This document shows positions 5,159 to 24,286 of a stretch of 64,000 nt of DNA, in pieces; positions within the stretch are counted from its first letter, which is position 1, and each line of letters starts with the position of its first letter. Under the pieces are notes generated by a model, which worked only from the letters and a program-made list of their open reading frames with translations, ran no database searches and was not told where the DNA came from. Source of the DNA: Leptolyngbya sp. FACHB-261. Its GTDB lineage: Bacteria; Cyanobacteriota; Cyanobacteriia; FACHB-261. Made by a program: the position numbers and the translations under genes. The DNA is taken from NCBI RefSeq assembly GCF_014696065.1, contig NZ_JACJPL010000036.1:1-64000 (forward strand), in the 5' to 3' direction.

Positions 5159-5614
5159 TCAGGCGGCAGCAACAGCCTGTCGAAGCGGCTGCCAAGATAT
5201 TTCCCGGGCACTCGCCACTTCTACAACAACCTTGACCTTAGGTTGAAGCGTGGGTAAGGTGACCAGGAATTGCAGCTCTTGGCGTGATAAAACCTTGCCC
5301 TCAATTAACCACAGCACTAGCCCTTTAGCGTTGGGTGGCAAGTTGTCGAGCTGGTATTGCAACAGCGGCGGGTAGAAGTAGGTGCGAATCTCTTTCTTGC
5401 CCAAGTGGGCTGGTCGCACGCCATGCACGCTTGTGAGATAAGCGGATAAGTCACCTAAACCTCGGGCCGTTAACGTCAGAACTCCGTAGCCTGCTCCTCG
5501 TAGGCGCCGCTGATAGCGCCCTTCAAACCCACCCTCAGGAGGAACACAGAGAGCCAGTGCTCCATTGCTTTCTAAATCTTGAATCATCTTTCTGCCCGTA
5601 ATGATCAGGCTCAT
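5159..5614 (-). CDS. ndhN: NAD(P)H-quinone oxidoreductase (NDH-1) subunit N
   Basis: 151 residues, normal for NdhN. Family signatures: GGFEGRYQRRLRGAGYGVL, LTARGLGDLSAYLTSVHGVRP, HLGKKEIRTYF, and KGLVLWLIEGKVLS. NdhN is a peripheral subunit of the photosynthetic NDH-1 complex, which runs cyclic and respiratory electron flow in the thylakoid membrane. The ndhN-ldpA pair on one strand looks like a two-gene unit, and from memory the same neighbours lie next to rplC in Nostoc-type genomes. Here about 6 kb of other genes separates them from rplC. Confidence 0.95.
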   Translation of the reverse strand: MSLIITGRKMIQDLESNGALALCVPPEGGFEGRYQRRLRGAGYGVLTLTARGLGDLSAYLTSVHGVRPAHLGKKEIRTYFYPPLLQYQLDNLPPNAKGLVLWLIEGKVLSRQELQFLVTLPTLQPKVKVVVEVASAREISWQPLRQAVAAA

Positions 5615-5801: not shown

Positions 5802-6490
5802 GTGGATGTTGAGACCACAACAGAAGCTCCTAGCCTTTCTCGAGGCATTCAGGAGTTGGTCGAGCGACTGAAGCAGGAGGGTTTGAAGCCGGACAGGTCA
5901 AGGCCAAGCAGGTAGAAGGAGCATCTCAGGAGAAGGCCCGTCGTCTGGTCGCCGATGCCCGGCAAGAGGCGGACTTGATTCTTGCCCAAGCTCGCGAGGA
6001 AGCAGCTACGAAAGCAGCAGGTCAGGAAGCACTACGAATCGCTGCCCGAGACACGCTGCTGACCCTGAAGAATGAAGCAGCTCAGGTATTCCGCAATGAG
6101 CTGCGCAAGCAAGTCAGTGCCCAGTCTCAGCAGGAAGCGTTTTTGCGCGATTTGCTGCTTCAAGTTTGTAAGCGACAGATACCCGAGCTTGAACCCGGCC
6201 AGGAAATGCGAGTTCTGCTCCCTGAGCGGTTGGTCAACCTAGAAGACCTGCGTCGAGTCAATGACACCCCTGAGGAAGAACTGTTAGCTCAATTTTTGCC
6301 AGTTTGTTTGGCGGTCCTCTACGCGAGGGTGTGGCCTTCGGCAGAACCAATGAGCAGTTCGAAGGAATTTAAGGTTGCGCTTGTAGATCAGCAATTGATG
6401 ATCGACTTAACTGACCACGCAATTGCGGCACTGCTTAGCCAGTATTTGTTGCCTCGCTTCCGGGCAGTGCTAGAAGGATATCTGCAATGA
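5802..6490 (+). pseudogene. atpE: V/A-type ATPase subunit E, frameshifted
   Basis: Starts at GTG 5802 behind AGGAGAAGG. The first frame reads VDVETTTEAPSLSRGIQELV and runs to about 5880; the rest continues in another frame from 5882 (FEAGQVKAKQ, then ARRLVADARQEADLILAQ) to the stop at 6490. One missing G in the run at 5879-5881 explains the shift. With it the protein would be 229 residues, with the long alanine- and glutamate-rich helix and C-terminal domain of the peripheral stalk subunit E. The stop overlaps the next start as ATGA, so it was the first gene of an operon. A base-call error could explain this lesion alone, but the downstream genes show damage that it cannot. Confidence 0.82.
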
Positions 6491-7112
6491 GCGGTAGCTA
6501 CTATGGTCTGATCGCTAGTCTGCCGTATCTGCCTAGGGACCTTAGCTTAAGGCGTCTGCCGATTAGCCGTCAGGCGTTAAAACTGCGCTTGAAGGCGTTG
6601 TCTCTGACAGATCAAGAGCAAATTAACGCGATTATTGAGTTTCACCAGCAGCTTTGGTGATGCAGCTGCTAGAAGATACAGCTCGCAAATTGCAGGACGT
6701 GAAAATCTCGGCTCTATTTCAGCAGGAGGTTAACCTCCTGCTGGTTGTTTCTGCTCTGCGTCACCGACAACAAGGCAAAACGCCTGTCTTACCAATCGGA
6801 GGTCTAGGCGTAGGTGGTCACTTACGTCGCTATTGGAATCAGCCTGACTTTAACCTGGGTGGGCGCTTCCCCTGGTTAGGTGAACTGCGTGAGTTGTTGG
6901 AGCAGGGAAGGGTTCTGGAACTGGAAAGGCAGATCGACCAAATTCGGTGGAAGTTTGCTGATTCGGCTAGTCAGATGAATCCCTTCACCTTTGAAGCCGT
7001 TGTGGCCTATGTGGGTAAATGGGACATTCTTTACCGCTGGAGCCAAACCGGTGAAGCTGCCGGACTGCAGCGATTTAATGAATTAATCGATCAAGTTCTG
7101 GAAAAAGCCTAA
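6487..7112 (+). pseudogene. DUF2764 V-type ATPase operon protein, split in two frames
   Basis: The first piece (6487-6660) encodes 57 residues beginning MSGSYYGLIASLPYLP, the N-terminal signature of DUF2764, a protein of unknown role encoded between E and A in Chlamydia-type V-ATPase operons. The second piece (about 6660-7112) encodes the C-terminal part, with QIRWKFADSASQMNPF, AYVGKWDILYRW and GLQRFNELIDQVL. The pieces meet as TGATG at 6658-6662 in different frames. Together they give about 207 residues, shorter than I expect for the family (around 260 from memory), so a small internal deletion is likely rather than one lost base. Two coupled genes are a less likely reading. Confidence 0.72.
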
Positions 7113-8250
7113 TGGTTAGTCAACTCAACGGACAGGCAGGGGCAACGGAGTCAGGGGCCAAGAGCACTGCTCGGGTCATTGGTGTGAATGGCAACATTGC
7201 GACCATTGAGCTAGAGCAAGGCTACTTAATGAAAAATGAAGTTACCTTTTACTCCTCTAGAGATGCCGTCGCTTTCAGAAGCGCAAATTCAGAATCGCTT
7301 AGAGGATGTAGAGGATACTCTAGAAAATTCCGAGACCCGCCGCATTGGTGCAACTCGCTTTATTGAGTCTCTGCGAGACTACTTGAACCAAGCGCTCAGT
7401 ACCTCCAAACTCAACCAGGCTACCCACTTAACCCACGACGAAATTGGTCTTTTTGTTATCCAGGCCTGGTGTCCTGTCAATCAGATTTCTGCTCTAGATG
7501 ATCTGGTTAAGGAGTTCTCTCTAGCTCTAACTGTGGAGGATCCAGGTCCACAGGAGCAACCACCAACGCTGGTGCAAAATTCAGATTTGCTGGCTCCTGG
7601 CGAGACTCTGATTAGCGTTTACGGCACACCGTCCTATCGCAGTTGGGGTCCGTCGGCCCTAATCTACGTCAGCTTTGTCCTGTTCTTCGGGATCATCATT
7701 GCTGATGCAGGCTACGGCTTTTTGCTACTGGGGATTGCCTGGCTGCTGCGTGGAAAACTACTGGCTAACAGTCAGCGTCGCTTGTTCTACTTATTTGCTG
7801 CCTTAGGCGTAAGTGCCAGCGCTTATGGACTTCTATCAGGTGAATACTTTGCGGTAGATCCACCAGAGGGCAGTCTCTTAGCACGCATCGCTATTTTTAA
7901 GCCTGATTTGGAGAATATTCCAGAATTGATGGCCTTTTCGGTCAGCATTGGTTGCTTGCATGTCTTAATCGCTAATGCCATTGCTGTCTCCCAATGCTGG
8001 TCAGCATTGCGTAAGGGGCAGTGCCTATCTAGCGATCACCTTCAATGATTTAGCCCATCAAGTGGCTTCTACCGGCGAGCTGGGTATTTTAGGGGCCTTC
8101 GTTCTAATCGTAGTTGGCCACACACTCAATTTCGTGCTGTGTATCATGGCTGGAACCATCCACGGTCTTCGTTTAAATTTCATCGAATTCTATCGTTGGA
8201 GCCAAGAGGGAGAAGGATATCGGTTCAATCCTTCTAAGAAACATACTTAG
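7112..8250 (+). pseudogene. V/A-type ATPase: N-terminus of subunit A joined to remains of subunit I
   Basis: 7112-7243 encodes 44 residues beginning MVSQLNGQAG and containing RVIGVNGNIATIELEQGYLM, the first beta-strand segment of catalytic subunit A. From about 7240 the similarity changes frame and becomes the cytoplasmic half of subunit I (SEAQIQNRLEDVEDTLEN, LFVIQAWCPVNQI), then its membrane part (WGPSALIYVSFVLFFG, ADAGYGFLL). The rest of A, all of B and D, and the start of I are absent. At about 8000-8030 a second join leads, in a third frame, to the I C-terminus (LAITFNDLA, IHGLRLNFIEFYRW). No functional ATPase can be made from this locus. Confidence 0.87.
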
Positions 8251-8341
8251 TTCAAGACCTTATAGGCTCAATGGCGACTCTTGATCACTTTTGGTCAGAG
8301 ATTAATCCCTGGCATTGCAACACAAATAGGAGAGACATACA

Positions 8342-8791
8342 GTGGAGGCACTAGCCTTAGGTTTAGGTTACATCGGTTTGTTTGCTGTCGTCGCACTGAG
8401 CGCCTGTGGTAGCGCGGTAGGCTGTGCTTGAGCAGGGATAGCAGCTGACGGGGCCATGTTAGAGCCTGAAACAGGCCACGGAAAATTTCTGGGTGTTGCG
8501 GCCTTGCCCTCCACGCAAGCAGTCCTGGGTATTGTGTTGATGTTTATTCTGAAACAGAACATCACAGCAACGAGCGGCTGGGGCATCTTTGCTATCGGCA
8601 CATTAGCAGGCGTTGCCCTGCTTGTTAGTGGCATTTATCAGGGCAATTGCTGCGCCATGGCCATCAATGTTTCCAAAAGTAAGCCAGAAATATTTGGTAA
8701 ATCTCTAGCCCCTGCTGGCATTGTAGAAGGATTCGCTATCTTTGTATTCGTAATGGCCCTGGTCCTGAGCCAAAGCCTACCTCGCGGCTAA
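8342..8791 (+). pseudogene. atpK: V/A-type ATPase proteolipid subunit K with internal stop
   Basis: GTG start at 8342 behind AGGAGA. The frame encodes two hairpins of the K proteolipid ring subunit, but codon 30 is TGA (VGCA-stop-AGIAADGAML, near 8429). After it the frame is open to 8791 and keeps the family features GHGKFLGVAALPSTQAVLG and AGIVEGFAIFVFVMAL, including the carboxylate of the ion-binding helix. A single C-to-T change of CGA would explain the stop. It is the last gene of the decayed V-type ATPase operon. It overlaps nothing; UPF0182 begins 5 nt later. Confidence 0.85.
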
Positions 8792-8795
8792 TGTT

Positions 8796-11626
8796 ATGTC
8801 CTTTCTACTGTCTCGATGGTCGTGGGTTCTTGGTCTTGCCCTCATTGGCTTTGGCTTTTTGGTAGACCAAGCGATCACCTTAGCAGTCGAAAGTTTTTGG
8901 TTTGCAGAAGTTGACTACCTAAGCGTTTTTGCCACCAGCCTTGGGGTCCGTCTTTTGCTCTGGCTGGCAGGGTTTGTCTTGGCGCTCCTGATTCTAGGAA
9001 GCGATCTCAGCTATGTCTGGCGCCGAACAGTTTTACCTAGAGCAAAATTCAGAGACCAAGAGCTAGGCTCCTGGCTGAAGCGATTACTCATTGTCAGCGT
9101 CCTCGGGCTGAGCGCCGTAATGGCGGAGTTTTTCTCAAAGGACTGGCTGCCGGTTCTGACTTGGCTCAACCAGGTGCGCTTTGAAACGCAAGATCCTCTC
9201 TTCCACCAGGATCTCGCGTTTTACATGTACAGCCTCCCAGTCTGGCAAGCACTGCTGTTTTGGAGCCTGCTGCTGTGGCTCCTAGTTTTAGGCAGCAGCG
9301 CTTTGCTTTATGGCTTACGGCAGAGACTGACCACACAGCCTGATAGCTCAGAGTCAGCTAAGACAATAGTCAAGGCAACAGCCCAAAGATTGCCTCTAGC
9401 AGCTTCACAGCACCTCCTTTGGTTAGTTGGAGTTCTCTGGCTGCATGTTGCCCTGACACACTGGCTTAGCCGCTATGATCTGCTCTATTCTTCTAGGGGC
9501 GTTATCTTTGGGGCAAACTATGCAGATGTTCATGCTCAGCTCCCAGCTAATTGGTTCTTAGCAGGAATTAGTTTATTAAGTGCTGTTGCTTGCTTCTGGC
9601 TAGGATGGCATAGTCTCAAAAACGCACCCACTAAAACCCTGTTGCTGCTAGTCGGTGGTTATGTTTTGAGCTTCCTTCTAATTGGCGTCCTATATCCGCA
9701 AGTCATTCAAGCCTTTGTCGTTCTGCCTAACGAACTAGAACGAGAACTTCCTTACATCGAACGCAATATTCAGTTCACTCGCCAGGGTTATAATCTAACG
9801 AATGTTGAAACTCAAGCTTTCACACTGAAAGATAACCTTACCTACAAGGATATTCAAAACAACCCTGGTACGATTAGAAACATCCGACTTTGGGACAGTC
9901 AGCCTTTACTGGAAACCTATCGGCAGTTGCAAGAGATCCGGCCCTACTACCAATTTCCCACCGTTGATGTAGATCGCTATTCAATTGATGGAGAGCTGCG
10001 TCAAGTGATGCACTCTGCGCGGGAATTAGATTATAGTCAGGTGCCGCGACGGGCTAGAACCTGGGTCAACCAGCATTTCTTTTATACCCACGGTTACGGT
10101 TTCACCCTTAGCCCGGTCAACATTGTGACCCACGAAGGCTTACCAGATTTTTTTATTAAAGATATTCCACCTCAGGCCACTAGCCCAGCGATTGAAACCG
10201 CTATTCCCGTTGATAACCCTTCTATTTATTATGGCGAGTTGACTCGCACAAATGTATTTGTCTCTACTACAGATAAGGAACTAGATTATCCTCAAGGCAA
10301 TCAAAATGTTTATGCCAGTTACACGGGTACGGGTGGAGTTCCCGTTGCGCGATTCTGGCAACGTCTGCTTTACGCTTGGCACTTCAGAGATCCACGAATG
10401 TTGCCAGCCAATGAATTTACTGACCAAAGTAGATTCATGTTTCGACGTAATATTCAGGAGCGAGTACAAACAATCGCGCCTTTCCTGCGTTACGACCGTG
10501 ATCCCTATATGGTGATCGAGGATGGTCGCCTTTATTGGTTTTTAGACGCTTACACCACGAGTACGCACTATCCCTACTCAGAACCTAGCGACGCTCCCTT
10601 CGACTTCAACTACATTCGTAACGCAGTCAAAGTTGTTATTGATGCCTATAACGTCAGTGTTGATTTTTACGTTTCTGACCCTCAAGACCCACTCATCAGA
10701 ACCTATCAACGCAGTTTTCCGGCTCTGCTTCAGCCTCTAGAAAAACTGCCTCAGAGCTTACGGCGTCATCTGCGCTATCCCGAAGACCTCTTTCAGGTTC
10801 AGGCACAGCAGTACGCTACATATCATATGGATGACTCTCAGGTTTTCTACAACAAAGAAGACCAATGGCACATTCCCCCGGAGACGCGACAGGGGATCAC
10901 ACAGCCGATGCGGCCCAACTACCTGATCCTAAAGTTGCCTAATCAGCAGAACCAGAAGGACAATAGCCTCCCCGAAGAGTTTGCGCTGTTATCTCCCTTT
11001 ACGCCATCCAACAAAGACAACCTAATTGCTTGGATGGCCGCCCGTTGCGATGCTGAGGAGTATGGCAAGCTCCTAGTCTATGAGTTCTCCAAGCAAAGTC
11101 AATTTTTGGGCCTCGCCAAGTTGAGGCTTGTATTAATCAAGCCCCAGAGATCTCAGAGCAGATTTCTCTCTGGAACCAGCATGGTTCGCGCGTGAACCGG
11201 GGTAACCTACTGGTGATTCCAGTGGAAAACTCCCTTCTATACATTGAGCCTCTCTACCTGGAAGCCGAGCAGAGCCGCTTGCCTCAGTTGACTCGTGTGA
11301 TTGCTGCTTACGAGGACCATGTAGTAGTGAACTCGACCTTAGATGAATCTCTGCGGGAGCTGTTTAGCCCACAGCAAGGTGCTGTGCTCGACCAGCCCAA
11401 CCTAGCAGAAGATTTAATGACTACTGAAGAGAATCAAGTTGCTACCCCTTCGGCTCGCTCAGTACCCCAATCTCAACAACGGCCCCTCACCCGCCGAGCC
11501 CTACAGCAGTGGCAGCAGGCCCAAGATGCTCTTCAGCGGGGAGACTGGGCCGAGTACGGTAAGCTCCAAACCCAACTCCGACAGACTTTAGAGCAGCTAG
11601 ACGTCCAGCAGTCTCAGCAGCAGTAG
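8796..11626 (+). pseudogene. UPF0182 (COG1615) large membrane protein, one-base frameshift
   Basis: The first frame (8796-11195) contains about seven hydrophobic segments in residues 1-300, then a large extracytoplasmic domain with RNIQFTRQGYNLTNVETQAF and YSRGVIFGANYADVHAQLP-like family blocks. Conserved text ends at SKQSQF near 11105 and resumes in another frame as FGPRQVEACINQAPEISEQI, SLWNQHGSRV, GNLLVIPVENSLLYIEPLYL to 11626. One T missing from the run at 11103-11107 restores a protein of about 940 residues, the usual length. Function of the family is unknown. A homopolymer sequencing error is a real alternative; if so, this is an intact gene. Confidence 0.85.
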
Positions 11627-12107
11627 GTCTGTCATACTTTTACTGGCCACATCCGGATTTTCCAGAAGTGGCGGAAGTAATTTGTTTCTTGCTAGACAGA
11701 TGAGGACTTCTCATCTATCATGATTAATTGTCGCCAAAATACGGGTAAGGTCACCCTCCAGCTTTTGCGGTACTGCTCGCTGGCCTCAAAGCCATGAGTG
11801 CACCTGCAAACTTCAGGCTCCGTGGGTGAGACTGATCGAATTAGGCCTTGAGCCCGGGAGATACTGAAAGGTAGAGTCTACCTCTTAAGTCTCAACAAGC
11901 GCGACACAGTGGGATTGAGCTTGATGCTCTGGATCCCGACTTGAGTTCTACGGTTTCGTAAGGCTCTTCCCCATTTTCTTGAGTTGGGGTGCTCTGGTCT
12001 AGAAATTCTAGAACAGAGCTTTGGAGAAGGTGAGCTGGATGCATGGGGAGGTTACCTCCTTCTATCGTCCTGGGCTCGTGGCGTGTAGCAATGGGAGATC
12101 CTGCGCT
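11627..12107. other. Gene-free leader region upstream of rplC
   Basis: No open frame with coding character was seen. The part near rplC holds two neighbouring stem-loops listed separately (11969-11989 and 11991-12019). The region must contain the promoter and untranslated leader of the ribosomal protein operon, but no convincing -35/-10 pair could be picked by eye. Confidence 0.6.
11969..12019 (+). promoter_or_regulatory. Two adjacent hairpins in the rplC leader
   Basis: The first is CCCCA (11969-11973) pairing with TGGGG (11985-11989). The second has 14-nt arms with a single mismatch, GCTCTGGTCTAGAA (11991-12004) against 12006-12019, around one central A. They end 88 nt before the rplC start. 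Ribosomal protein operons often carry leader structures bound by one of their own products; whether that applies here is inference. Confidence 0.55.
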
Positions 12108-12749
12108 GTGGCAATCGGTATTCTTGGCACCAAACTGGGCATGACCCAGATCTTCGACGAGCAAAAGCGGGCGATCCCCGTTACGGTCATCCAAGCAGGT
12201 CCCTGCACGGTGACTCAGCTCAAGACTGTTCAAACTGATGGCTATACAGCAGTGCAGCTAGGCTTTGAATCAGTTAAAGAAAAAGCGCTGACCCGGCCTG
12301 AACTAGGTCATCTCCAGAAATCTGGCGCTGCTCCTCTCCGGCATCTTCAGGAATATCGGGTAGATAGTACGGATACCTACGAACTAGGACAAACCCTAGG
12401 CCCAGACCTCTTTAGCGCGGGTCAACTGGTTGATGTTGCTGGCACCAGCATCGGGAAGGGTTTTGCTGGTTACCAGCGGCGTCACAACTTTAAGCGAGGA
12501 CCGATGGCGCACGGTTCTAAGAACCATCGTCAGCCGGGTTCAACGGGTGCTGGTACAACGCCAGGTCGCGTTTATCCAGGTAAGCGCATGGCAGGGCGTA
12601 TGGGCGCTGAGCGGGTTACGATTCGCAAGTTGACAGTGATCCGAGTGGATGCCGAGCGCAACTTGATTCTGATTCAGGGCGCTGTACCCGGTAAGCCAGG
12701 AGCCCTAGTCAGTATTGTTCCGGCCACAATCGTTGGTCGCGTCAAATAG
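12108..12749 (+). CDS. rplC: Large ribosomal subunit protein uL3
   Basis: 213 residues from the GTG at 12108, preceded by GGGAGA; an upstream TTG/ATG-open frame from 12021 lacks L3-like sequence. Signatures: [14 protein letters not shown] at the start and [20 protein letters not shown] in the extended loop that reaches the peptidyl transferase centre. It binds 23S rRNA early in assembly. First gene of the long ribosomal protein cluster. Confidence 0.97.
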
Positions 12750-12767
12750 GAGGCTGGGTTAGAAGCA

Positions 12768-13403
12768 ATGGTTAGCTGCACGATAAAAGATTGGACAGGC
12801 ACAGATACGGGTGAGGCCAGCCTTGACCTGAGAGTTGCTAACGAGCAAAACGCTCCTCATATTGTTCACCGCGCTTTGCGGCGTCAGCTGGTCAATTCCC
12901 GTCAAGGAACGGCCAGTGCTAAGACCCGCTCTGAAGTGAGTGGTGGTGGTCGTAAGCCTTGGCGGCAGAAGGGAACTGGTCGGGCTCGCGCTGGCTCCAG
13001 CCGTTCCCCGCTATGGCGGGGTGGCGGGGTGATTTTTGGACCAAAGCCACGGGACTTCGAAGTCAAGATGAATCGCAAAGAGCGTCGTCTTGCCTTACGG
13101 ACGGCCTTGCAAAGTCGGGTCCAAGATTTGATTGTGGTCGAAGATTTTAACGATCAGCTTCCCCGCCCTAAAACCAGAGACCTGGTTAGTGCCTTAACTC
13201 GATGGGGCATTGGTTTAGAGGACAAGGTCCTCCTAATCACTGCCGAGAAGCAGGAAAATACCTATTTATCGGCTCGCAACATCGGCAATCTAAAGCTGAT
13301 CCTGGCAACGAACCTCAACGTTTATGACCTGCTGGCCGCTGACCGCATCGTCATAACCGCCCCGGCCCTTGAGAAGATTCAGGAGGTTTACAGTGACAGC
13401 TGA
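12768..13403 (+). CDS. rplD: Large ribosomal subunit protein uL4
   Basis: 211 residues. The conserved loop [24 protein letters not shown] is present (residues about 62-85), which lines the nascent-peptide tunnel. A TAGGAGG sequence precedes the ATG, somewhat far from it. Its last codons contain the ribosome-binding site of rplW, and the two genes overlap by 11 nt, indicating translational coupling. In enterobacteria L4 is also the operon autoregulator; not shown here. Confidence 0.96.
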
Positions 13404-13698
13404 ATTTGATCCCCGGCGTTTAGCTGATCTAGTACGCCGTCCCCTTGTAACTGAGAAGGCAACCATTGTTTTAGGTGACAACAAGTACACCTTTGAGGTT
13501 GCCCCCAATGCGACTAAGCCTGAAATTAAGGCAGCGATCGAAGACCTATTTGACGTCAAGGTAGTAAAGGTCAACACTCAGAACCCACCCGCGAAAAAGC
13601 GACGGGTTGGCAAATTTGCCGGGGAGCGCCCTCATTACAAGCGGGCTGTTGTCACTCTGGCAGAAGGAGACAAGATTACGCTCTTCCCGGAAGTGTAA
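13393..13698 (+). CDS. rplW: Large ribosomal subunit protein uL23
   Basis: 101 residues from the GTG at 13393, chosen because a full AGGAGG at 13381-13386 lies 6 nt upstream. The frame begins inside the end of rplD. Family sequence includes [26 protein letters not shown] (as two adjoining blocks) and a basic central segment. L23 sits at the tunnel exit and docks trigger factor and SRP. Confidence 0.96.
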
Positions 13699-13723
13699 GT
13701 AAACCTGAACCGAGATTAAAGTT

Positions 13724-14587
13724 ATGGGAATTCGTGCCTACAGACCTTACACTCCAGGAACGCGTCAGCGCACCGATTCTGATTTCGCGGAAATTACGCG
13801 TTCAGAACCTGAAAAATCATTAGTTAAATTCAAACACAACCCGAAGGGCCGCAATAACCGAGGGGTAATTACCAGTCGCCGTCGCGGTGGTGGTCATAAG
13901 CGTCTCTATCGTGAGATTGATTTCCGTCGGGATAAACGTAACGTCCCTGCTCGGGTCGCAGCGATTGAATATGATCCCAATCGCAATGCTCGTATCGCAC
14001 TGCTGTTTTATACAGATGGTGAGAAACGATACATTCTGCATCCTCGGGATCTTAAAGTCGGGGCCATAGTCACGGCAGGTGAAGCCGCGCCGATTGAGAC
14101 TGGCAACGCTTTGCCGCTAAGCAATATTCCACTGGGTACCGGGGTCCATAACGTTGAGTTAGTCCCTGGCAAAGGTGGTCAGATTGTTCGCGCTGCAGGC
14201 GCTACCGCTCAAATCGTTGCTAAGGAAGGCAACTTTGTCACCTTAAAGCTTCCCTCTGGCGAAGTGCGGATGATTCGTCGCGACTGCTACGCCACTATTG
14301 GTCAGGTAGGCAACACAGAACATAGCAACCTCAGCACCGGCAAAGCTGGCCGTAACCGTTGGCGTGGACGCCGTCCTAAGGTGCGAGGCGTGGTGATGAA
14401 CCCGGTTGATCACCCCCATGGTGGTGGTGAGGGTCGTGCTCCAATTGGCCGCAGCACCCCTGTAACCCCTTGGGGTAAGCCAACCTTAGGCTACAAAACC
14501 CGTAAAAAGAACAAGCAAAGTGACTCTCTTATTGTCCGCCGTCGTCGTCGTGGTTCTCGGCGCGGTAAGGGTGGACGGAACACCTAA
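13724..14587 (+). CDS. rplB: Large ribosomal subunit protein uL2
   Basis: 287 residues with the usual L2 layout: OB-like and SH3-like RNA-binding domains and a basic C-terminal tail ([14 protein letters not shown], then [16 protein letters not shown]). The histidine of the VDHPHGGG block is the conserved residue near the peptidyl transferase centre. Follows rplW by 25 nt. Confidence 0.97.
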
Positions 14588-14641
14588 CGGTTATTCCCAT
14601 CTTGCTTTGGCTCCAGCTAAACCCATTCAGAGTCAGCACTT

Positions 14642-14923
14642 ATGCCCCGTTCACTGAAAAAAGGTCCCTTCGTTGCTGACCATCTACTGAGTAAAATCGA
14701 GGCCCTCAATGTGAAGGGTGAGAAGCAGGTCATCAAAACCTGGTCACGAGCTTCTACGATTCTGCCCCAGATGATCGGTCATACGATTGCTGTTCACAAC
14801 GGTAAGCAGCACGTTCCAGTCTATGTGAGTGAGCAGATGGTGGGCCACAAGCTAGGTGAGTTTGCCCCCACTCGCACATTCCGAGGTCACGCCAAGAGCG
14901 GTGACAAGAAGGCCCGTCGTTAA
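14642..14923 (+). CDS. rpsS: Small ribosomal subunit protein uS19
   Basis: 93 residues, standard for S19, beginning [16 protein letters not shown] and containing [16 protein letters not shown] and [20 protein letters not shown]. It forms part of the 30S head with S13. A 37-nt gap leads to rplV. Confidence 0.97.
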
Positions 14924-14960
14924 GGCCTTATCCAAACGAGATTTTGCAGGACTTGAAACT

Positions 14961-15338
14961 ATGGCCGCTGAAGCTGTAACCGAAGTAAAGGCAATTGCCC
15001 GCTACATCCGCATGTCTCCCCATAAGGTGCGTCGGGTTCTCGATCAGATTCGGGGCCGTAGCTACCGGGAAGCTCTCATCATTCTAGAGTTCATGCCCTA
15101 TCGGGCTTGTGAGCCAATTCTCAAGGTCCTGCGCAGTGCAGTCGCTAACGCAGAGCATAACAATGGCATGGACCCTGCAACTCTGGTCGTTTCGACTGCC
15201 TTCTCCGATGGAGGACCGTCGTTGAAGCGTTTTCGCCCTCGGGCTCAGGGTCGCGCTTACCAAATCCGCAAACCTACCTGCACCATCACCGTTGCTGTTC
15301 GGTCTATGACCGAGGTCGAAGCGGCTAAGGCCAGCTAA
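14961..15338 (+). CDS. rplV: Large ribosomal subunit protein uL22
   Basis: 125 residues from the ATG at 14961, with AGGA upstream. The open frame extends back into rpsS but is not L22-like there. Family blocks: [20 protein letters not shown] and the tunnel-lining loop [19 protein letters not shown] near the C-terminus. Confidence 0.96.
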
Positions 15339-15375
15339 GCCCATCTCTTGATTGCCGCACTTTTTGGACTTACCC

Positions 15376-16122
15376 ATGGGACAGAAAATCAACCCAACCG
15401 GTCTTCGTCTTGGGATCACCCAATCCCACCGTTCCCGCTGGTTCGCTGAGCCAAAGCGCTACCCGGAACTGGTGCAGGAGGATTTCAAGATCCGGAAGTA
15501 CATTAACAAAGTTCTCGATAACGCTGGTGTCTCTGAGATTTACATCGAGCGCAAAGCTGATCAAATCGCCCTGGAGATCCGGACTGCCCGACCGGGTGTT
15601 GTGGTTGGTCGAGGCGGTAAGGGGATTGAAGATCTGCGTAATGGTTTGCGCAAAGAGCTAGGCAGTGGTGAGCGTCAGATCCAGGTCAACGTTGTTGAAG
15701 TGGCCCGGGTCGATGCCGAAGCTCCTTTGATTGCAGAATACATTGCTCAACAGCTAGAGCGTCGGGTCTCATTCCGTCGCGTGGTACGCCAAGCTATTCA
15801 ACGTGCTCAGCGGGCTGGTATCCAAGGCATCAAGATTCAAGTCGGTGGGCGTCTTAACGGGGCTGAAATTGCACGCTCTGAGGCAACTCGTGAGGGTAGT
15901 GTCCCCCTACATACTCTGAGAGCAGATATTGACTACGCCTACAAGAGTGCTCGAACCATCTATGGAGTACTCGGCGTTAAGGTTTGGATTTTCAAAGGCG
16001 AGATTCTGCCCAGCCAGGAGCAGCAACCAGATACCGCCAATGCTCAGCAGCCTCGCCGTCGTCCAGGGGGACAGCGCCGTCGCCCGCAGTTTGAAGATCG
16101 CTCAGGTGCCAGCGATAGCTGA
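15376..16122 (+). CDS. rpsC: Small ribosomal subunit protein uS3
   Basis: 248 residues from the ATG at 15376 ([14 protein letters not shown]). The KH domain carries [17 protein letters not shown]; the C-terminal domain follows with [11 protein letters not shown]. The end is a glutamine-, proline- and arginine-rich tail (from about residue 215), common in cyanobacterial S3. S3 binds the mRNA entry site of the 30S head. Confidence 0.96.
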
Positions 16123-16152
16123 CCCCACGCTTGACACTCCATAGGATCAGCC

Positions 16153-16578
16153 ATGCTCAGTCCCAGACGTACTAAATTCCGCAAGCAACAGCGAGGTCGC
16201 ATGGGTGGCCTCGCAACCCGCGGCAACGACCTTAACTTTGGTGAATTTGCTCTCCAAGCCTTGGAGCCTGCCTGGATTACGTCACGCCAAATCGAGGCAG
16301 GGCGACGGGCCATGACTCGCTATATCCGTAGAGGCGGCAAGATCTGGATCCGCATTTTTCCAGATAAGCCTGTCACTATGCGTCCTGCTGAAACTCGGAT
16401 GGGCTCTGGTAAAGGGGCACCTGAGTTTTGGGTAGCTGTTGTGAAACCAGGTCGGATTTTATTTGAAATTGGCGGTGTAAGTGAAGAGATCGCACGCGAA
16501 GCGATGCGACTAGCTGCCTTTAAGATGCCGATCAAGACCAAGTTCATCATGCGACAGAAGGTCGAGGGAGAAGAGTAA
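16153..16578 (+). CDS. rplP: Large ribosomal subunit protein uL16
   Basis: 141 residues, beginning [19 protein letters not shown] and containing [17 protein letters not shown] and [19 protein letters not shown]16 organises the tRNA A-site region of the 50S subunit. Its TAA is immediately followed by the ATG of rpmC with no gap, so the two are translationally linked. Confidence 0.97.
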
Positions 16579-16791
16579 ATGGCCCTTTCCACGATTAAAG
16601 AAGCCAGAGACCTCTCCGATGGTGAACTGGCAGAGCAAATCATCGCCGTCAAAAAAGAGCTGTTTCAGCTGCGCTTCCAGAAGGCAACTCGAAAACTGGA
16701 AAAGTCTCATTTGTTTAAGCACGCGCGGCACCGGCTAGCTCAATTGATGACCGTAGAAAATGAGCGAGCGAAGGCCGCTGCTAAGGAGTAA
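16579..16791 (+). CDS. rpmC: Large ribosomal subunit protein uL29
   Basis: 70 residues, helical hairpin of L29 with the motif [18 protein letters not shown]. The ATG directly abuts the rplP stop; GGGAGAAGAG in the end of rplP serves as ribosome-binding site. L29 lies at the tunnel exit next to L23. Confidence 0.95.
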
Positions 16792-16797
16792 TCGACA

Positions 16798-17049
16798 ATG
16801 GCAGTTAAGGAAACAGTTGGCCTAGTGGTCAGCGACAAAATGGATAAAACCGTGGTGGTAGCGGTCGAGAACCGATCTTCCCATCCTAAGTACGGCAAGA
16901 TTGTCGTTTACACCAAGCGGTTCAAAGCCCACGACGAGAAGAACGAGTGCAAGGCTGGCGACCGGGTCCGCATCCGAGAAACCCGTCCTTTAAGTCGCAC
17001 CAAACGTTGGGAAGTTGCTGATATCCTCAGTCGGGCTCAAAAGGTTTAG
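16798..17049 (+). CDS. rpsQ: Small ribosomal subunit protein uS17
   Basis: 83 residues with the OB-fold signatures [36 protein letters not shown] and [19 protein letters not shown]17 is a primary 16S rRNA binder of the 30S body. It starts 6 nt after rpmC. Confidence 0.96.
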
Positions 17050-17058
17050 GAGAACGCC

Positions 17059-17427
17059 ATGATTCAGCAGGAAACCTATCTCAACGTGGCGGATAACAGC
17101 GGAGCTCGTAAGCTCATGTGTATTCGTGTGCTAGGTGGGGGTAATCGACGTTACGGTGGCGTCGGCGATGTAATCATTGCCGTTGTCAAGGATGCGACCC
17201 CCAACATGCCGGTCAAAAAATCTGATGTAGTCCGAGCGGTCATCGTCCGTACTAGAAAGGCACTGCGTCGAGACAGTGGCATGAGCATTCACTTCGACGA
17301 CAACGCAGCTGTAATCATCAACCAAGACGGCAACCCTCGAGGCACTCGCGTATTTGGCCCAGTCGCCCGCGAACTACGAGACAAGAACTTCACTAAAATC
17401 GTCTCCTTGGCTCCGGAGGTGCTTTAA
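17059..17427 (+). CDS. rplN: Large ribosomal subunit protein uL14
   Basis: 122 residues, standard length, beginning [20 protein letters not shown] and with [16 protein letters not shown] and [14 protein letters not shown]14 forms intersubunit bridges. AGGAG stands 6 nt before the start. Confidence 0.97.
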
Positions 17428-17429
17428 AG

Positions 17430-17795
17430 ATGGCTAACCGTAAACCTAAGCTTAACGACAACGGTAAAGTTATTCGTTACCAGGTACATGTCAAGAAGGG
17501 CGATACCGTACAGGTCATTGCTGGTAAGGATAAGGGCAAAGTTGGTGAAATTCTAACCGTGCTCCCCAAAATTGGCAAAGTAACTGTTAAGGGTGTCAAC
17601 GTCAAAACCAAGCATGTTAAGCCTCAGGCAGAAGGGGAATCTGGCCAGATCACCACTTTTGAGGGGCCAATTCATAGCTCTAACGTAATGCTCTACTCCA
17701 AGAAGCAAAACGTAGCTAGCCGAGTAGGTTACACCTTTACAGAAGACGGACGTAAGGTACGGATTCTTAAAAAGACTGGCGAGATTATTGACTAA
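17430..17795 (+). CDS. rplX: Large ribosomal subunit protein uL24
   Basis: 121 residues. A KOW motif is visible ([20 protein letters not shown], residues about 22-41). L24 is an assembly initiator that binds the 5' end of 23S rRNA. Start lies 2 nt after the rplN stop. Confidence 0.96.
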
Positions 17796-17838
17796 ATTCA
17801 CCCTGACCCAGCCCAGGGAACTACAGGAGTTTCAGACC

Positions 17839-18384
17839 ATGCCCGATCGGTTCAAGGCTTTGTACCAGGACAAAGTTGTCCCTAAACTCGTTGATGAGTT
17901 TAAGTACAAAAATATCATGCAAGTTCCCAAGCTTGACAAGGTTGTTGTCAACCGAGGCATGGGAGAAGCTGCTCAAAATGCTAAGTCCTTAGAGGCGTCA
18001 TTGGCAGAAATTGCAACTATTACAGGTCAAAAGCCGGTAGTTACCCGTGCAAAAAAAGCTATTGCTGGCTTCAAAATTCGCCAGGGTATGCCAGTTGGTA
18101 TTATGGTTACCCTGCGCCAAGAACGGATGTATGCATTCCTCGATCGTTTGATCAATTTAGCCCTGCCGCGTATTCGGGATTTTCGAGGCGTCAGCGCTAA
18201 AAGCTTTGATGGACGCGGTAACTACACCCTAGGCATCCGTGAACAGCTCATTTTTCCCGAAATTGAGTATGACCGCATTGATGCCATTCGGGGCATGGAC
18301 ATTTCGATCATCACTACAGCAAATACGGACGAGGAAGGCCGCGCCCTACTCAGGGAAATGGGAATGCCTTTCCGAGAGAGTTAG
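17839..18384 (+). CDS. rplE: Large ribosomal subunit protein uL5
   Basis: 181 residues from the ATG at 17839, with GGAG 9 nt upstream; the frame is open back into rplX but that part is not L5-like. Family blocks: [20 protein letters not shown] and [21 protein letters not shown]5 binds 5S rRNA and contacts the P-site tRNA. Confidence 0.96.
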
Positions 18385-18413
18385 GACTGGTCGCGGTTAA
18401 TAAGGAGAGAACT

Positions 18414-18815
18414 ATGGCGGCGAACGACACCATTTCGGATATGCTGACGCGGATCCGGAACGCGACTCTTGCGAAGCACCCGACCACTAACATCCCGGCC
18501 ACTCGCATGACTTTGAGTATTGCTCGGGTTCTGCAGGAAGAAGGCTTTATTCAGCAATTTGAGGAAGTCGGCGAAGGTGTGAACCGGAAGCTGGTGGTCT
18601 CGCTGAAATACAGAGGCAAGACTCGCAAACCGATCATCACAGCGCTCAAGCGAGTCAGCCGACCGGGACTTCGGGTTTATTCCAACCACAAAGACTTACC
18701 TCGGGTTCTAGGAGGTATTGGCATTGCCATTATCTCGACTTCTCGAGGCATTATGACAGACCGCGAAGCCAGAAAAGAAGGCATTGGCGGCGAAGTCCTC
18801 TGCTACATCTGGTAA
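18414..18815 (+). CDS. rpsH: Small ribosomal subunit protein uS8
   Basis: 133 residues: [14 protein letters not shown] at the start and the conserved C-terminal [21 protein letters not shown]8 binds the central domain of 16S rRNA. AAGGAGAGA precedes the ATG. Confidence 0.97.
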
Positions 18816-18836
18816 TCGAGCAACAGGAGAATTACC

Positions 18837-19412
18837 ATGTCCCGGATTGGCAAGCGTCCGATTCCGATTCCTAACAAAGTAACTGTGACTGTGGACGGTC
18901 AAAAAGTGACGGTCAACGGTCCCAGTGGAGAACTTAGCCAAGTTCTGCCTGATGAGGTTAGTGTAGAGCAGCAGGATGGCACACTGGTTGTCACCCGTCG
19001 AGATGACTCTCGCCCAGCCCGTGAGCGACACGGTCTTGCTCGCACTCTGGTTGCCAATATGGTTACTGGAGTGACCGAGGGCTTCAAAAAAGACATGAAG
19101 ATTGCGGGTGTTGGCTATCGCCTGCAAGTGGTAGGTAGCAAATTAACGATCACTGCTGGCTACAGTCATCCAATCGAGATTGAGTTGCCCAAGGGTGTAA
19201 CCATTGATGTTGACCAAAGAGCAACTCCAATAGGTAACACTAAGAATCAACAAGGCTTCAACTTCAGTGTCAAGGGGATTGACAAGCAGGCCGTAGGCGA
19301 TATTGCTGCTGAAATCCGTGCTGTTCGACCTCTGGAGCCTTACAAGGGCAAAGGCATCCGTTATGCCTATGAAATACTGCGCCTGAAGGCTGGTAAGGCA
19401 GGGAAGAAGTAA
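18837..19412 (+). CDS. rplF: Large ribosomal subunit protein uL6
   Basis: 191 residues, slightly long because of a lysine-rich C-terminal end (KAGKAGKK). Signatures: MSRIGKRPIPIPNKVTVTV, GVGYRLQVVGSKLTITAGYS, and EIRAVRPLEPYKGKGIRYA. L6 sits near the factor-binding site. Confidence 0.96.
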   Translation: MSRIGKRPIPIPNKVTVTVDGQKVTVNGPSGELSQVLPDEVSVEQQDGTLVVTRRDDSRPARERHGLARTLVANMVTGVTEGFKKDMKIAGVGYRLQVVGSKLTITAGYSHPIEIELPKGVTIDVDQRATPIGNTKNQQGFNFSVKGIDKQAVGDIAAEIRAVRPLEPYKGKGIRYAYEILRLKAGKAGKK

Positions 19413-19415
19413 CTT

Positions 19416-19778
19416 ATGAAAGTCAGTCGCAAACAAGCAGCTCGCAGCAGGCACGTTCGTATCCGTCGCAAGGTTTTTGGTACTGCTGAGCGTCCCCGTC
19501 TGGCAGTGTTTCGCTCAAACCAACACATTTATGCCCAGCTGATCGATGATGTTGCTCAGCGCACTTTGGCAGCGGCCTCGACTGTAGAGTCTGATTTACG
19601 CCAAGCTCTAGAGTCTACCGCAACCTGTGAAGCTTCCACCCGAATTGGCGCTCTCATTGCTGAGCGGGCGAAAGCTCAAGGGATCGAACAAGTTGTGTTT
19701 GACCGCGGCGGTAATCTCTACCATGGCCGCGTGAAAGCTCTGGCTGATGCTGCCCGTGAGGCCGGATTGAACTTCTAA
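19416..19778 (+). CDS. rplR: Large ribosomal subunit protein uL18
   Basis: 120 residues with [20 protein letters not shown] and the C-terminal [21 protein letters not shown]18 carries 5S rRNA into the 50S subunit with L5. It starts 3 nt after rplF. Confidence 0.96.
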
Positions 19779-19808
19779 CGTAGAACCGAACATCCAGGAG
19801 AAGCAGGT

Positions 19809-20438
19809 ATGGCACAACGAGATAGAGGCAATCGCGGCGGCGGTACTGGTCCTGGGGGTGGTAGCGACCGCGACAGTGATCGTAGCAATGACCGTGGTGG
19901 ACGTCGCGGTGGGCGTAACAGCGAGCGTGATCGTAACCGCAATAATGAGGAGAAGTCCGAGTGGCAGGAACGTGTAGTCCAAATTCGACGCGTTACCAAG
20001 GTTGTTAAGGGCGGTAAAAAGCTCAGCTTCCGAGCCATTGTCATTGTGGGTAACGAGAAGGGCCAAGTCGGGGTTGGGGTTGGTAAAGCCAGTGATGTAA
20101 TTGGCGCAGTTAAAAAGGGCGTTGCCGATGGCAAAAAGCATCTAATTGAGGTGCCTCTCACTCGCACCAGCTCCGTGCCTCACCCTGCTACTGGTGAAGG
20201 CGGAGGAGCTAAAGTCATGATCCGTCCAGCTGCTCCAGGGACCGGGGTAATTGCAGGTGGTGCTGTACGTACAGTGCTGGAATTGGCTGGTGTCCGCAAT
20301 ATTTTAGCCAAGCAACTAGGCTCTGATAACCCTTTAAACAACGCTAGAGCTGCTGTCACAGCTCTGTCCTCTCTGCGAACCTTGGCTGGTGTCGCTGAAG
20401 AGCGTGGTATTGCCGTTGAGCGGCTCTACAGCAAGTGA
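19809..20438 (+). CDS. rpsE: Small ribosomal subunit protein uS5 with RG-rich N-terminal extension
   Basis: 209 residues; bacterial S5 is usually 165-175. The core begins near residue 50 ([20 protein letters not shown]) and holds the S5 double-stranded-RNA-binding and C-terminal domains ([36 protein letters not shown]). Residues 1-48 are almost entirely Arg, Gly, Asp, Ser and Asn and are probably disordered. AGGAGAAGCAGGT lies just before the ATG, which supports translation from this start. Confidence 0.94.
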
Positions 20439-20471
20439 ACACAAACGACGAGCAAGATTGATTGACACGCT

Positions 20472-20918
20472 ATGAGACTATCTGACGCGGTTCCTAATCC
20501 CAAATCCAAACATCGTCGCCGTCGTGTGGCTCGTGGTATTGCTGCAGGTCAAGGTGCTAGTGCTGGTCTCGGTATGCGCGGCCAGAAAGCCCGTTCTGGT
20601 AGTGGTACCCGTCCCGGCTTTGAAGGTGGTCAAATGCCACTGTACCGCCGCTTGCCGAAGCTCAAGCATTTTACGGTTATCAACCGGCAGCAGTACACTA
20701 CGATCAACGTTAGCAAGTTGAGCGTCTTGGCCTCGGGTACAGAAGTAACGCTTCAATCATTAATCGAGGCGGGCATTGTTACCACTGATGATGGTCCGCT
20801 CAAAATTCTGGGAGACGGTGACCTAAGTGTTGCCTTAAATGTTCATGCTGCTGCTTTCACAAGCAGCGCACGAGCCAAGATTGAGGCAGCGGGTGGTAGT
20901 TACACCCTGATCAGTTAA
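20472..20918 (+). CDS. rplO: Large ribosomal subunit protein uL15
   Basis: 148 residues: the glycine-rich basic N-terminal part ([33 protein letters not shown]) threads into 23S rRNA; the C-terminal domain ends with [16 protein letters not shown]. Directly upstream of secY, as in most bacteria. Confidence 0.96.
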
Positions 20919-20964
20919 GGCTAAGTAGAAGCTTTGAGCAGTAGTTAGCGAGGAGCCAACGGTT

Positions 20965-22263
20965 ATGGTGGTCAGTCGGGGCAAAGCGCCCAGTGCTCAG
21001 GAGACTTTTGCACAAATGGCCCAAGCAGCTGGTCTGCGGGGCCGTTTGTTTCTGACAATTGGGATGCTGATCTTGGTGCGTCTAGGCATCTTTATTCCAG
21101 TACCTGGTATTGACCGGCAACGTTTTGCAGCAGAGATTGCCAGCAATCCAGTCGTTGGTTTCCTGGATATTTTCTCTGGAGGCGGCCTATCGGCTCTCGG
21201 GGTATTTGCTCTAGGAATCCTGCCCTACATCAACGCTTCAATTATTCTGCAGTTATTAACGGCAGCAGTCCCTGCTCTAGAGGATTTGCAGAAGAATGAG
21301 GGTGAGGCCGGGCGACGCAAAATCTCCCAAATCACTCGGTACGTAGCTTTAGTTTGGGCTGTAATCCAGAGCATCGGTATATGTTTCTGGGTGCAGAAAT
21401 ATGCTGAAAGCAGTGGACCTCTGTTTTTCTGGAACACAACTCTAGCTCTCACCGCTGGCTCGATGTTCGTAATGTGGGTAGGCGAGCTGATTACCGAGAG
21501 GGGGGTTGGCAACGGTGCTTCTCTGCTCATTTTTATTAGTATTGTTTCAGGCTTACCCAAGTCTCTAGGTCAGACCTTCCAGCTAGCAAAGAATGACAGC
21601 TCCTTGGTGGGGGGTGTAGTTATTCTGATGCTTGTCTTCCTAGCCATGATTGTTGGGATTGTTTTTGTTCAGGAAGGAACCCGTCGGATCCCGATTATTT
21701 CGGCCAGGCGTCAGGTTGGTCGCCGTCTTTACCGAGAGCAAACGAGCTATCTGCCTCTGCGCTTGAATTCGGGCGGTGTCATGCCTATTATCTTTGCCTC
21801 CTCTTTTCTTGTATTGCCAGCTTTTCTAGCCAATTCGACCCGTAATCCCCTGTTAGCTCGCATTGCAGAGGATTACTTACGGCCTAATAGTTGGTTCTAT
21901 GTAGGGCTGTATTTGGTGTTGATTTTGGCCTTTAGCTACTTTTACTCTTCGCTAGTAATTAACCCGGTTGACCTATCTCAAAACCTTAAGAAGATGGGAG
22001 CTAGTGTTCCTGGGATTCGCCCGGGCAAGAACACCACTGAGTATATTGAGCGGGTTCTCAATCGTCTCACTCTGTTGGGTGCAGTCTTCCTAGGGGCAGT
22101 TGCAGTCATTCCAACTGTTGTTGAACGGGCTACCAACATCACAACCTTTCAGGGAATTGGTGCAACGTCGCTACTAATCCTGGTAGGCGTTGCGATTGAC
22201 ACTGCAAAGCAGATTCAAACCTATGTGATTTCTCAGCGCTACGAAGGAATGGTGAAGCAGTAG
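20965..22263 (+). CDS. secY: Protein translocase channel subunit SecY
   Basis: 432 residues with ten predicted membrane helices. Family blocks: FIPVPGIDRQRF in the plug region, FSGGGLSALGVFALGILPYI, EGTRRIPIISARRQVGRR in the cytoplasmic loop, and GIRPGKNTTEYIERVLNR. SecY forms the SecYEG channel in plasma and thylakoid membranes for protein export and insertion. Its TAG overlaps the GTG of adk by one base, indicating coupled translation. Confidence 0.97.
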   Translation: MVVSRGKAPSAQETFAQMAQAAGLRGRLFLTIGMLILVRLGIFIPVPGIDRQRFAAEIASNPVVGFLDIFSGGGLSALGVFALGILPYINASIILQLLTAAVPALEDLQKNEGEAGRRKISQITRYVALVWAVIQSIGICFWVQKYAESSGPLFFWNTTLALTAGSMFVMWVGELITERGVGNGASLLIFISIVSGLPKSLGQTFQLAKNDSSLVGGVVILMLVFLAMIVGIVFVQEGTRRIPIISARRQVGRRLYREQTSYLPLRLNSGGVMPIIFASSFLVLPAFLANSTRNPLLARIAEDYLRPNSWFYVGLYLVLILAFSYFYSSLVINPVDLSQNLKKMGASVPGIRPGKNTTEYIERVLNRLTLLGAVFLGAVAVIPTVVERATNITTFQGIGATSLLILVGVAIDTAKQIQTYVISQRYEGMVKQ

Positions 22264-22829
22264 TGACTAGGCTGATTTTTTTGGGAGCACCTGGTGTTGG
22301 TAAGGGAACTCAAGCCAGCCGTCTTGCGCAAAAAGTTGGGGTACCTCATATCTCAACAGGTGACCTCTTGAGAACAGCTGTTAGCCAGCAAACTCCTTTA
22401 GGAAGTAAGGCAAAGGCTTACATGGATCAGGGTCAGCTCGTCCCTGACGAGCTAGTGGTATCCCTGATTGAGGAGCGCATCCAGGAACCAGGTGCCCAGA
22501 TAGGCTGGATTCTAGATGGTTTTCCCCGAAATGTCGCTCAGGCGAACGTCTTGGAGCAGCTGCTAGACCGTATGCGGCAACACGGCAAGCAGGTTATCAA
22601 TCTAGATGTGCCAGTAGATGTCATCGTTCAACGTTTGCTTGAACGAGGTCGAGCGGATGACACTGAAGAGGTTATACGCAATCGCTTGAGCGTATATCAG
22701 TCACAGACAACTCCCCTTCTTGAGTTTTACAAGACGCGGGACCAGCTTGAGACTATCAATGGCAACGCATCGGTCGAGGAGGTTGAGGCTTCGTTGTGGC
22801 AGGCTATTCAGGCACAACCTGAACCCTAG
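22263..22829 (+). CDS. adk: Adenylate kinase, short-lid type
   Basis: 188 residues from GTG. P-loop [20 protein letters not shown]-binding [28 protein letters not shown]. The lid is the short form ([18 protein letters not shown]) without the zinc-binding insertion. It converts ATP plus AMP into two ADP. The secY-adk-infA order is the usual one. Confidence 0.96.
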
Positions 22830-22906
22830 GGTCTCGATATTGTTACCCTAGATGTATAAGGAAGTTTCCTAAAAGACTTTGTGCGCGAGTAGTAAGGAGT
22901 AGATGG

Positions 22907-23131
22907 TTGGCTAAGCAAGATGTGATCGAGATGGAGGGGGTGGTTACGGAGTCCCTGCCTAATGCTATGTTCCGGGTTGATTTGGATAATGGCTTTAATG
23001 TGCTTGCGCACATTTCGGGCAAAATCCGCCGTAACTACATCAAGATTTTGCCAGGTGACAGAGTTAAGGTTGAACTGACTCCTTATGATCTCACCAAGGG
23101 ACGCATTACCTACCGTCTACGCAAAAAGTAA
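22907..23131 (+). CDS. infA: Translation initiation factor IF-1 (TTG start)
   Basis: 74 residues, an S1-type OB fold: [40 protein letters not shown], and [14 protein letters not shown]. The only start that gives the normal N-terminus is TTG at 22907, with AAGGAG about 10 nt upstream. An ATG 4 nt earlier is out of frame. IF-1 occupies the A site during initiation. The weak start codon may limit expression. Confidence 0.94.
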
Positions 23132-23141
23132 TTAGGGATTC

Positions 23142-23170
23142 TTGACTTATCCCTCGCATTTTTGTATACT
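23142..23170 (+). promoter_or_regulatory. Sigma-70-type promoter before rpmJ
   Basis: TTGACT (23142-23147) and TATACT (23165-23170) are separated by exactly 17 nt, each one base from consensus. It starts about 10 nt behind the infA stop and 30 nt before the rpmJ start, so it would give an internal transcript for rpmJ-rpsM and beyond with a leader of about 23 nt. Confidence 0.78.
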
Positions 23171-23199
23171 ATTGTTTTTGCAGTATTGCCGGGAAAGGC

Positions 23200-23313
23200 A
23201 TGAAGGTACGAGCTTCGGTCAAGAAAATCTGTGAGAAGTGCCGTGTTATCCGTCGACACGGTCGGGTTATGGTCATCTGTTCCAATCCAAAGCACAAGCA
23301 GCGGCAGGGCTAA
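23200..23313 (+). CDS. rpmJ: Large ribosomal subunit protein bL36
   Basis: 37 residues: [20 protein letters not shown], then [17 protein letters not shown]. The zinc-binding set C-X2-C-X12-C-X4-H is complete, so this is the zinc-containing form. GGGAAAGG stands before the ATG. It lies between infA and rpsM as in most bacteria. Confidence 0.97.
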
Positions 23314-23407
23314 GCGGCTGGATCGGGATGGCTCCTTCGCTGGTTGAAAACAACCATAGCGCTAGAACTAGAGAATCGACAAGGGACAAAGAGTAGGGAG
23401 AGCGGAA

Positions 23408-23791
23408 GTGGCACGGATTGCAGGGGTAGACCTCCCCAGGGACAAACGAGTAGAGATCGGGCTTACCTACATTTACGGTATTGGTTTAACCCGATCTCAG
23501 CAGATTCTAGCCGCTACGGGTGTTAGCCCGGATACGCGGGTGAAAGACCTTTCAGACACTGATGTCTCTGCTCTGCGAGCAGAACTTGAGGCGAATTACC
23601 AGGTTGAAGGTGACCTGCGGCGTCTTGAGGGCATGAACATCAAACGGTTGATGGACATTGGTACTTACCGAGGTCGGCGCCATCGGCTGGGATTGCCTGT
23701 CAGGGGACAACGCACTCGTACTAATGCTCGTACTCGACGAGGAGGTCGTCGGACCGTTGCAGGTAAGAAGAAGGCTCCAGGTAAGAAGTAG
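23408..23791 (+). CDS. rpsM: Small ribosomal subunit protein uS13
   Basis: 127 residues from the GTG at 23408, with AGGGAGAGCGGAA upstream. Signatures: [40 protein letters not shown], and a basic tail ending KKKAPGKK. S13 contacts the P-site tRNA and the 50S bridge. Confidence 0.96.
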
Positions 23792-23820
23792 TCATTTCTT
23801 CGGTCTGCTCCTCAGTACAC

Positions 23821-23846
23821 AAACCTGGAACGCCCAGGTTTTTTGG
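23821..23846 (+). terminator. Terminator-like hairpin between rpsM and rpsK
   Basis: AACCTGG (23822-23828) pairs with CCAGGTT (23834-23840) around a 5-nt loop, and the stem runs straight into T residues (six in all counting the last two of the stem). It sits inside the ribosomal protein cluster 30 nt behind rpsM, so it would act as a partial terminator or attenuator before rpsK-rpoA. Confidence 0.72.
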
Positions 23847-23887
23847 CGTGAAAGTTTCAAGTTTAGAATTGCTAGGATATTGACTTT

Positions 23888-24286
23888 ATGGCAACTCGAC
23901 AGCCTACTCGTCGTACGGGTCCCCGCAAGCCCAAGCGAAACGTGCCTAATGGGGTGGCCTATATTCAGTCCACCTTCAACAACACTATCGTAACCATTGC
24001 CGATGTGAGTGGCGATGTAATCTCTTGGGCATCAGCAGGCTCTAGTGGTTTCAAGGGCGCAAAGAAAGGTACTCCCTTTGCTGCACAAACAGCTGCTGAA
24101 GGTGCTGCTCGTCGAGCTATCGATCAGGGTATGCGCCAGGTTGAGGTTATGGTCAATGGGCCTGGCTCTGGTCGGGAAACGGCTATCCGAGCACTCCAAG
24201 CAGCTGGCTTAGAAATAACCCTGATTCGCGATGTAACTCCAATCCCTCACAATGGCTGCCGGCCTCCCAAGCGTCGTCGGGTTTAG
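23888..24286 (+). CDS. rpsK: Small ribosomal subunit protein uS11
   Basis: 132 residues: [37 protein letters not shown], and the end [18 protein letters not shown]11 forms the 30S platform near the mRNA exit. The 96-nt gap before it contains a terminator-like hairpin. Confidence 0.97.

Follow-up and report, generated by a model that had tools for sequence, protein, structure and literature searches.

The genome of Leptolyngbya sp. FACHB-261 (G000; 6.95 Mb, 97.7% complete) in all probability carries a recently decayed operon of a bacterial V-type rotary ATPase, of the order E-DUF2764-A-B-D-I-K and most likely an ATP-driven ion pump, together with a linked gene of the UPF0182 family. The window, by which we mean the whole stretch of 64,000 nucleotides that was analysed, comprises positions 1-64000 of contig C36 and stands at the contig start. 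By profile searches and frameshift-aware alignment, the remnant at 5802-8791 has the order E, DUF2764, A, I, K, with B and D missing; the first-pass annotation had read both the order and the coordinates correctly. The locus thus belongs, in pseudogene form, to a bacterial V-type ATPase operon, with E, A, I and K all represented by homologous sequence in operon order. The V-type ATPase operon of Chlamydia, which is intact there, likewise has the order E-DUF2764-A-B-D-I-K. The features of the block are as follows.

5802-6490, + strand: subunit E pseudogene (profile match, lesion alignment)
6488-7112, + strand: pseudogene of DUF2764, a C-like subunit (profile match, lesion alignment)
7112-7249, + strand: stub of catalytic subunit A (aligned part, residues 33-59 of the Nodosilinea protein)
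7239-7249, no strand: putative junction of the first deletion, where A runs directly into I (sequence comparison)
7239-8250, + strand: subunit I pseudogene (profile matches, lesion alignment)
7991-8008, no strand: short palindrome CAATGCTG-GT-CAGCATTG (read from the sequence)
8342-8791, + strand: subunit K pseudogene (profile match, lesion alignment)
8796-11626, + strand: K-linked UPF0182 gene (profile match, tree, frameshift reading)

Lesions were mapped by frameshift-aware comparison with the intact proteins of Nodosilinea nodulosa PCC 7104. All remaining subunit genes bear inactivating lesions, be they frameshifts, deletions or an in-frame TGA, and the earlier description of every remaining gene as broken therefore stands. 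Subunit E matches NCBIfam PRK01558 (8.6e-13), and the GTG at 5802 is its likely start. Aligned to Nodosilinea E, its frame changes near 5886, 6245 and 6367, and two stops interrupt the alignment between 6245 and 6367. The DUF2764 remnant matches its Pfam family (4.5e-16); its frame shifts once, near 6658, and the alignment to Nodosilinea shows a loss of about 9 residues.

Two large deletions affect the subunit genes that follow. Only 27 residues of subunit A were recovered in the frameshift-aware comparison, 17 of them identical to Nodosilinea A. Judged by the Nodosilinea spacing, about 4.3 kb is missing between codon ~59 of A and residue ~166 of I, and this first deletion took most of A, the beginning of I and, between them, B and D in full. 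Since the junction bases, 7239-7249, can plausibly be read in both the A and the I frames, the sequence suggests a single deletion event, at a short repeat, as the cause of the A-to-I loss. The surviving pieces of I match the PRK05771 family (2.3e-28 and 3.7e-17), are 52-66% identical to Nodosilinea I, and align with its residues ~166-422 and ~516-592. The second deletion removed residues ~423-515, and an 8+8 base palindrome, CAATGCTG-GT-CAGCATTG, stands at its junction. The lost segment aligns with KIFGDVLSYLRLFALGLSSTYLA of Nodosilinea, which, from what is generally understood of the family, presumably holds the essential arginine within a conserved arginine helix.

Subunit K is the best preserved. 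Its match to PRK09621 (3.8e-38) alone places the operon remnant far beyond chance; it shares 76% identity with Nodosilinea K and, apart from a single in-frame TGA at 8429, reads through at full length. Such an open, conserved frame is what might be expected if the fragments still functioned, for example if the K ring and a shortened I formed a passive channel. We consider this next to negligible: the stop takes away the first helix of K, I is without its arginine segment and cytoplasmic domain, and neither a rotor nor an ATPase subunit remains.

The comparison of K with Enterococcus hirae NtpK indicates a ring protein with one carboxylate per four helices. The remnant is conserved at the positions corresponding to T64, Q65, Q110 and E139 of the Enterococcus Na+ ring, and H stands in place of Q65 in K of Nodosilinea and of G389. 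We take these four NtpK residues to be the Na+ ligands. The known ring (PDB 2bl2) is likewise a four-helix protein with one carboxylate, but its sequence similarity to the cyanobacterial K remnant is remote. It is possible, from the residues kept, that the lost ATPase pumped Na+, and H+ is also a possible pumped ion. The earlier suggestion of a sodium pump is no more than compatible with the four ligand positions kept in the remnant, one of which is H in both of its nearest sisters. That the intact operon encoded an ATP-driven ion pump is likely, because homology, complete relatives and the one-carboxylate K ring all point that way.

We next consider whether the missing subunits exist elsewhere. 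Searches with PF01992, PF00006, PF01813 and the Nodosilinea B and D proteins found V-type A, B and D nowhere else in this 97.7% complete genome. Only two proteins matched PF00006, and these were read as the F-type alpha and beta subunits; the genome search likewise returned no subunit D, no V-type B and no AC39-type subunit. An intact A-B-D set elsewhere, one of the findings that the first-pass annotation had said would overturn its reading, was thus rejected within that completeness. A separate gene set in an assembly gap keeps a small residual probability, because the genome falls short of full completeness and the genes are dispersed in a relative (G445). Catalytic A and B and the rotor shaft D are not present as genes, with 27 residues of A aligned and B and D absent genome-wide, and the locus is therefore a remnant rather than part of a working operon.

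The surroundings of the block bear on whether the contig itself might be wrong and the operon intact in the organism. To the left lie ldpA and ndhN (5159-5614), and the S10 ribosomal operon (11892-24000) follows on the right. An assembly or sequencing artefact would fit the position of the window at the contig start and a frameshift in a homopolymer run of the UPF0182 gene. However, five genes are differently damaged within 3 kb, by two large deletions, small indels and a nonsense codon; ndhN, ldpA and the ribosomal neighbours are intact, unlike the V-ATPase genes; and there is no second V-type copy as a source of a chimera. We judge an artefact very improbable.

Decay of the operon is thus evident from the sequence, and we infer its past pump function, and the direction of pumping, from the family and the intact relatives. 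In the intact state, A and B would hydrolyse ATP, D would turn the K ring, ions would cross at the K-I interface, and E and the DUF2764 protein would serve as stalk and coupling parts. Having an F-type ATP synthase as well, the lineage could do without the pump. Deletions then stripped the operon of its catalytic sector and cut the arginine segment out of I, and the remaining genes were broken by frameshifts and a nonsense codon.

The retained I and K codons were used to date this decay. Relative-rate counts of the window against its functional sisters were 45:45, 45:53, 39:41 and 44:44, and there was no acceleration of protein rate in the window lineage. Of 192 sites at which the four functional rows all agree, the window lineage had changed 22, a figure inside the range of 7 to 27 obtained when other rows are left out in turn. 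Third codon positions were the most divergent, as in working genes. The V-ATPase genes were under selection until recently, relative to divergence, and since the remnant shows no rate acceleration, the decay is recent.

A scan for K across genome contigs revealed an intact operon of the same order, E-DUF2764-A-B-D-I-K, in Nodosilinea nodulosa PCC 7104 (L021), where A, B, D and K exceed the NCBIfam cut-offs for the V-type models. This operon shares its gene order and tree clade with the remnant; unlike the remnant, it is intact, occupies another chromosomal place and has no UPF0182 gene directly after K. It is the kind of intact relative that the first-pass annotation had proposed to seek as support for loss. 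That a once working V-type ATPase was lost, as that annotation had proposed, is well supported, because an intact homologue exists in Nodosilinea, the genome has no intact A-B-D of its own, and the damage consists of several independent lesions.

V-type operons are unusual in cyanobacteria, as had been claimed. An I homologue was found in 13 of 390 genomes of the class and a K homologue in 3 of 386 genomes in an even draw from the phylum; these three are the same three that lie above the PF01496 cut-off. V-type ATPases have already been reported in Synechococcus WH5701, BO8801 and PCC7336 and in Cyanobium PCC7001, with filamentous cyanobacteria mentioned as their kin (PMC7434838). In the I+K tree, cyanobacterial sequences form two separate groups. 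Clade 1 (100/100) unites the window, Nodosilinea, G389, G445 and G595, while clade 2 contains Cyanobium, Synechococcus and others, lies beside Methylococcaceae, and has one row from a metagenome-assembled genome labelled Deltaproteobacteria. A single clade for all cyanobacterial V-ATPases was rejected (AU test, p 2.3e-6). The Cyanobium and Synechococcus WH 5701 operons (PMC7434838) have the same seven subunits and are also cyanobacterial, but unlike the remnant they fall in the separate clade nearer Methylococcaceae and have the order B-D-I-K-E-DUF2764-A, which is the clade 2 order at the loci inspected.

Two further genomes showed unusual arrangements. In G445, a complete Pseudanabaena-like genome, the clade 1 genes are intact but spread over at least four chromosomal sites, L179 (D), L167 (B), L077 (I-K) and L168 (A). 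An orphan function of its I-K pair was rejected, as B, A and D are located elsewhere in the same genome; a literature search found nothing on a V-type ATPase in Pseudanabaena. In Halomonas sp. M20, subunit B is in two parts about 5 kb apart (L028:977-1549 and 6694-7440) and looks as if interrupted by an insertion.

How the operon reached its present site is less certain. In nine other cyanobacteria examined, including Nodosilinea, ndhN and rplC lie side by side in divergent orientation, 0.3-1.1 kb apart; here the V-ATPase and UPF0182 block separates ndhN from rplC (from 12111). The junction is closed in the others, and therefore the block was put at this site secondarily. Gain of the operon from another cyanobacterium into this junction, followed by loss, rather than inheritance from an early ancestor, has in our judgement about an even chance. 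The split junction agrees with it, as do the patchy distribution and the more than one origin of cyanobacterial V-ATPases. However, an old operon moving within its genome would look alike, and distances of 0.8 changes per column or more to all other carriers mean that a transfer, if there was one, was old. For the five carriers the unrooted V-ATPase topology also agrees with the ribosomal tree, although this is a weak test, nearly forced with three lineages. A placement outside cyanobacteria, which the first-pass annotation had named as the sign of transfer, did not emerge: the copy falls in the purely cyanobacterial clade 1. In a ribosomal protein tree made by a quick method the genome, the sole one of its order among those compared, branches deeply and in isolation, close to the Pseudanabaena-like pair and the long-branched G393.

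The UPF0182 gene begins 4 bases past the K stop. Its frame is broken once, near 11105 within a T5 run, either through decay or through a sequencing error. Since this gene is K-linked and carries one frameshift, the block probably reaches downstream as far as about 11626; the first-pass extent of 5802-8791 is right for the operon remnant and probably too short for the block. In G389 a UPF0182 gene also stands right after K, with the K-UPF0182 pair inverted relative to E-I, and Nodosilinea has a related paralogue about 38 kb from its V-ATPase operon. The three (window 8796-11626; L075:402-3090; L159:2836-5565) form one clade (100/99) apart from the general copies, among which a second, uninterrupted copy in the FACHB-261 genome falls. 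The paralogue thus appears to belong to the V-ATPase block. UPF0182 was not seen beside V-ATPase genes outside clade 1 at the loci inspected, and neither of two Pseudanabaena-like carriers has it; therefore it is not essential to the clade 1 ATPase. The G389 paralogue has a frameshift in an A6 run, and E of its otherwise intact operon (L075:4229-4892) has one in a C7 run; these are early decay or assembly errors.

In conclusion, the remnant is an unusual but ordinary gene loss, a decayed member of a sparse, already known kind of cyanobacterial V-ATPase, and it leaves the understanding of how V-type ATPases work unchanged. It records a recent loss in a deep-branching cyanobacterium, and cyanobacteria have at least two separate V-ATPase lineages. 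More tentatively, and we consider it rather unlikely, clade 1 may be a distinct, old, cyanobacteria-specific lineage with its own accessory UPF0182 membrane protein that is coming apart in different ways: intact in Nodosilinea, scattered in the Pseudanabaena-like genome, and destroyed here along with UPF0182. The linkage gives a first indication of what the uncharacterised UPF0182 family may work with and, if the accessory reading is true, would connect the role of that family with a rotary ion pump.
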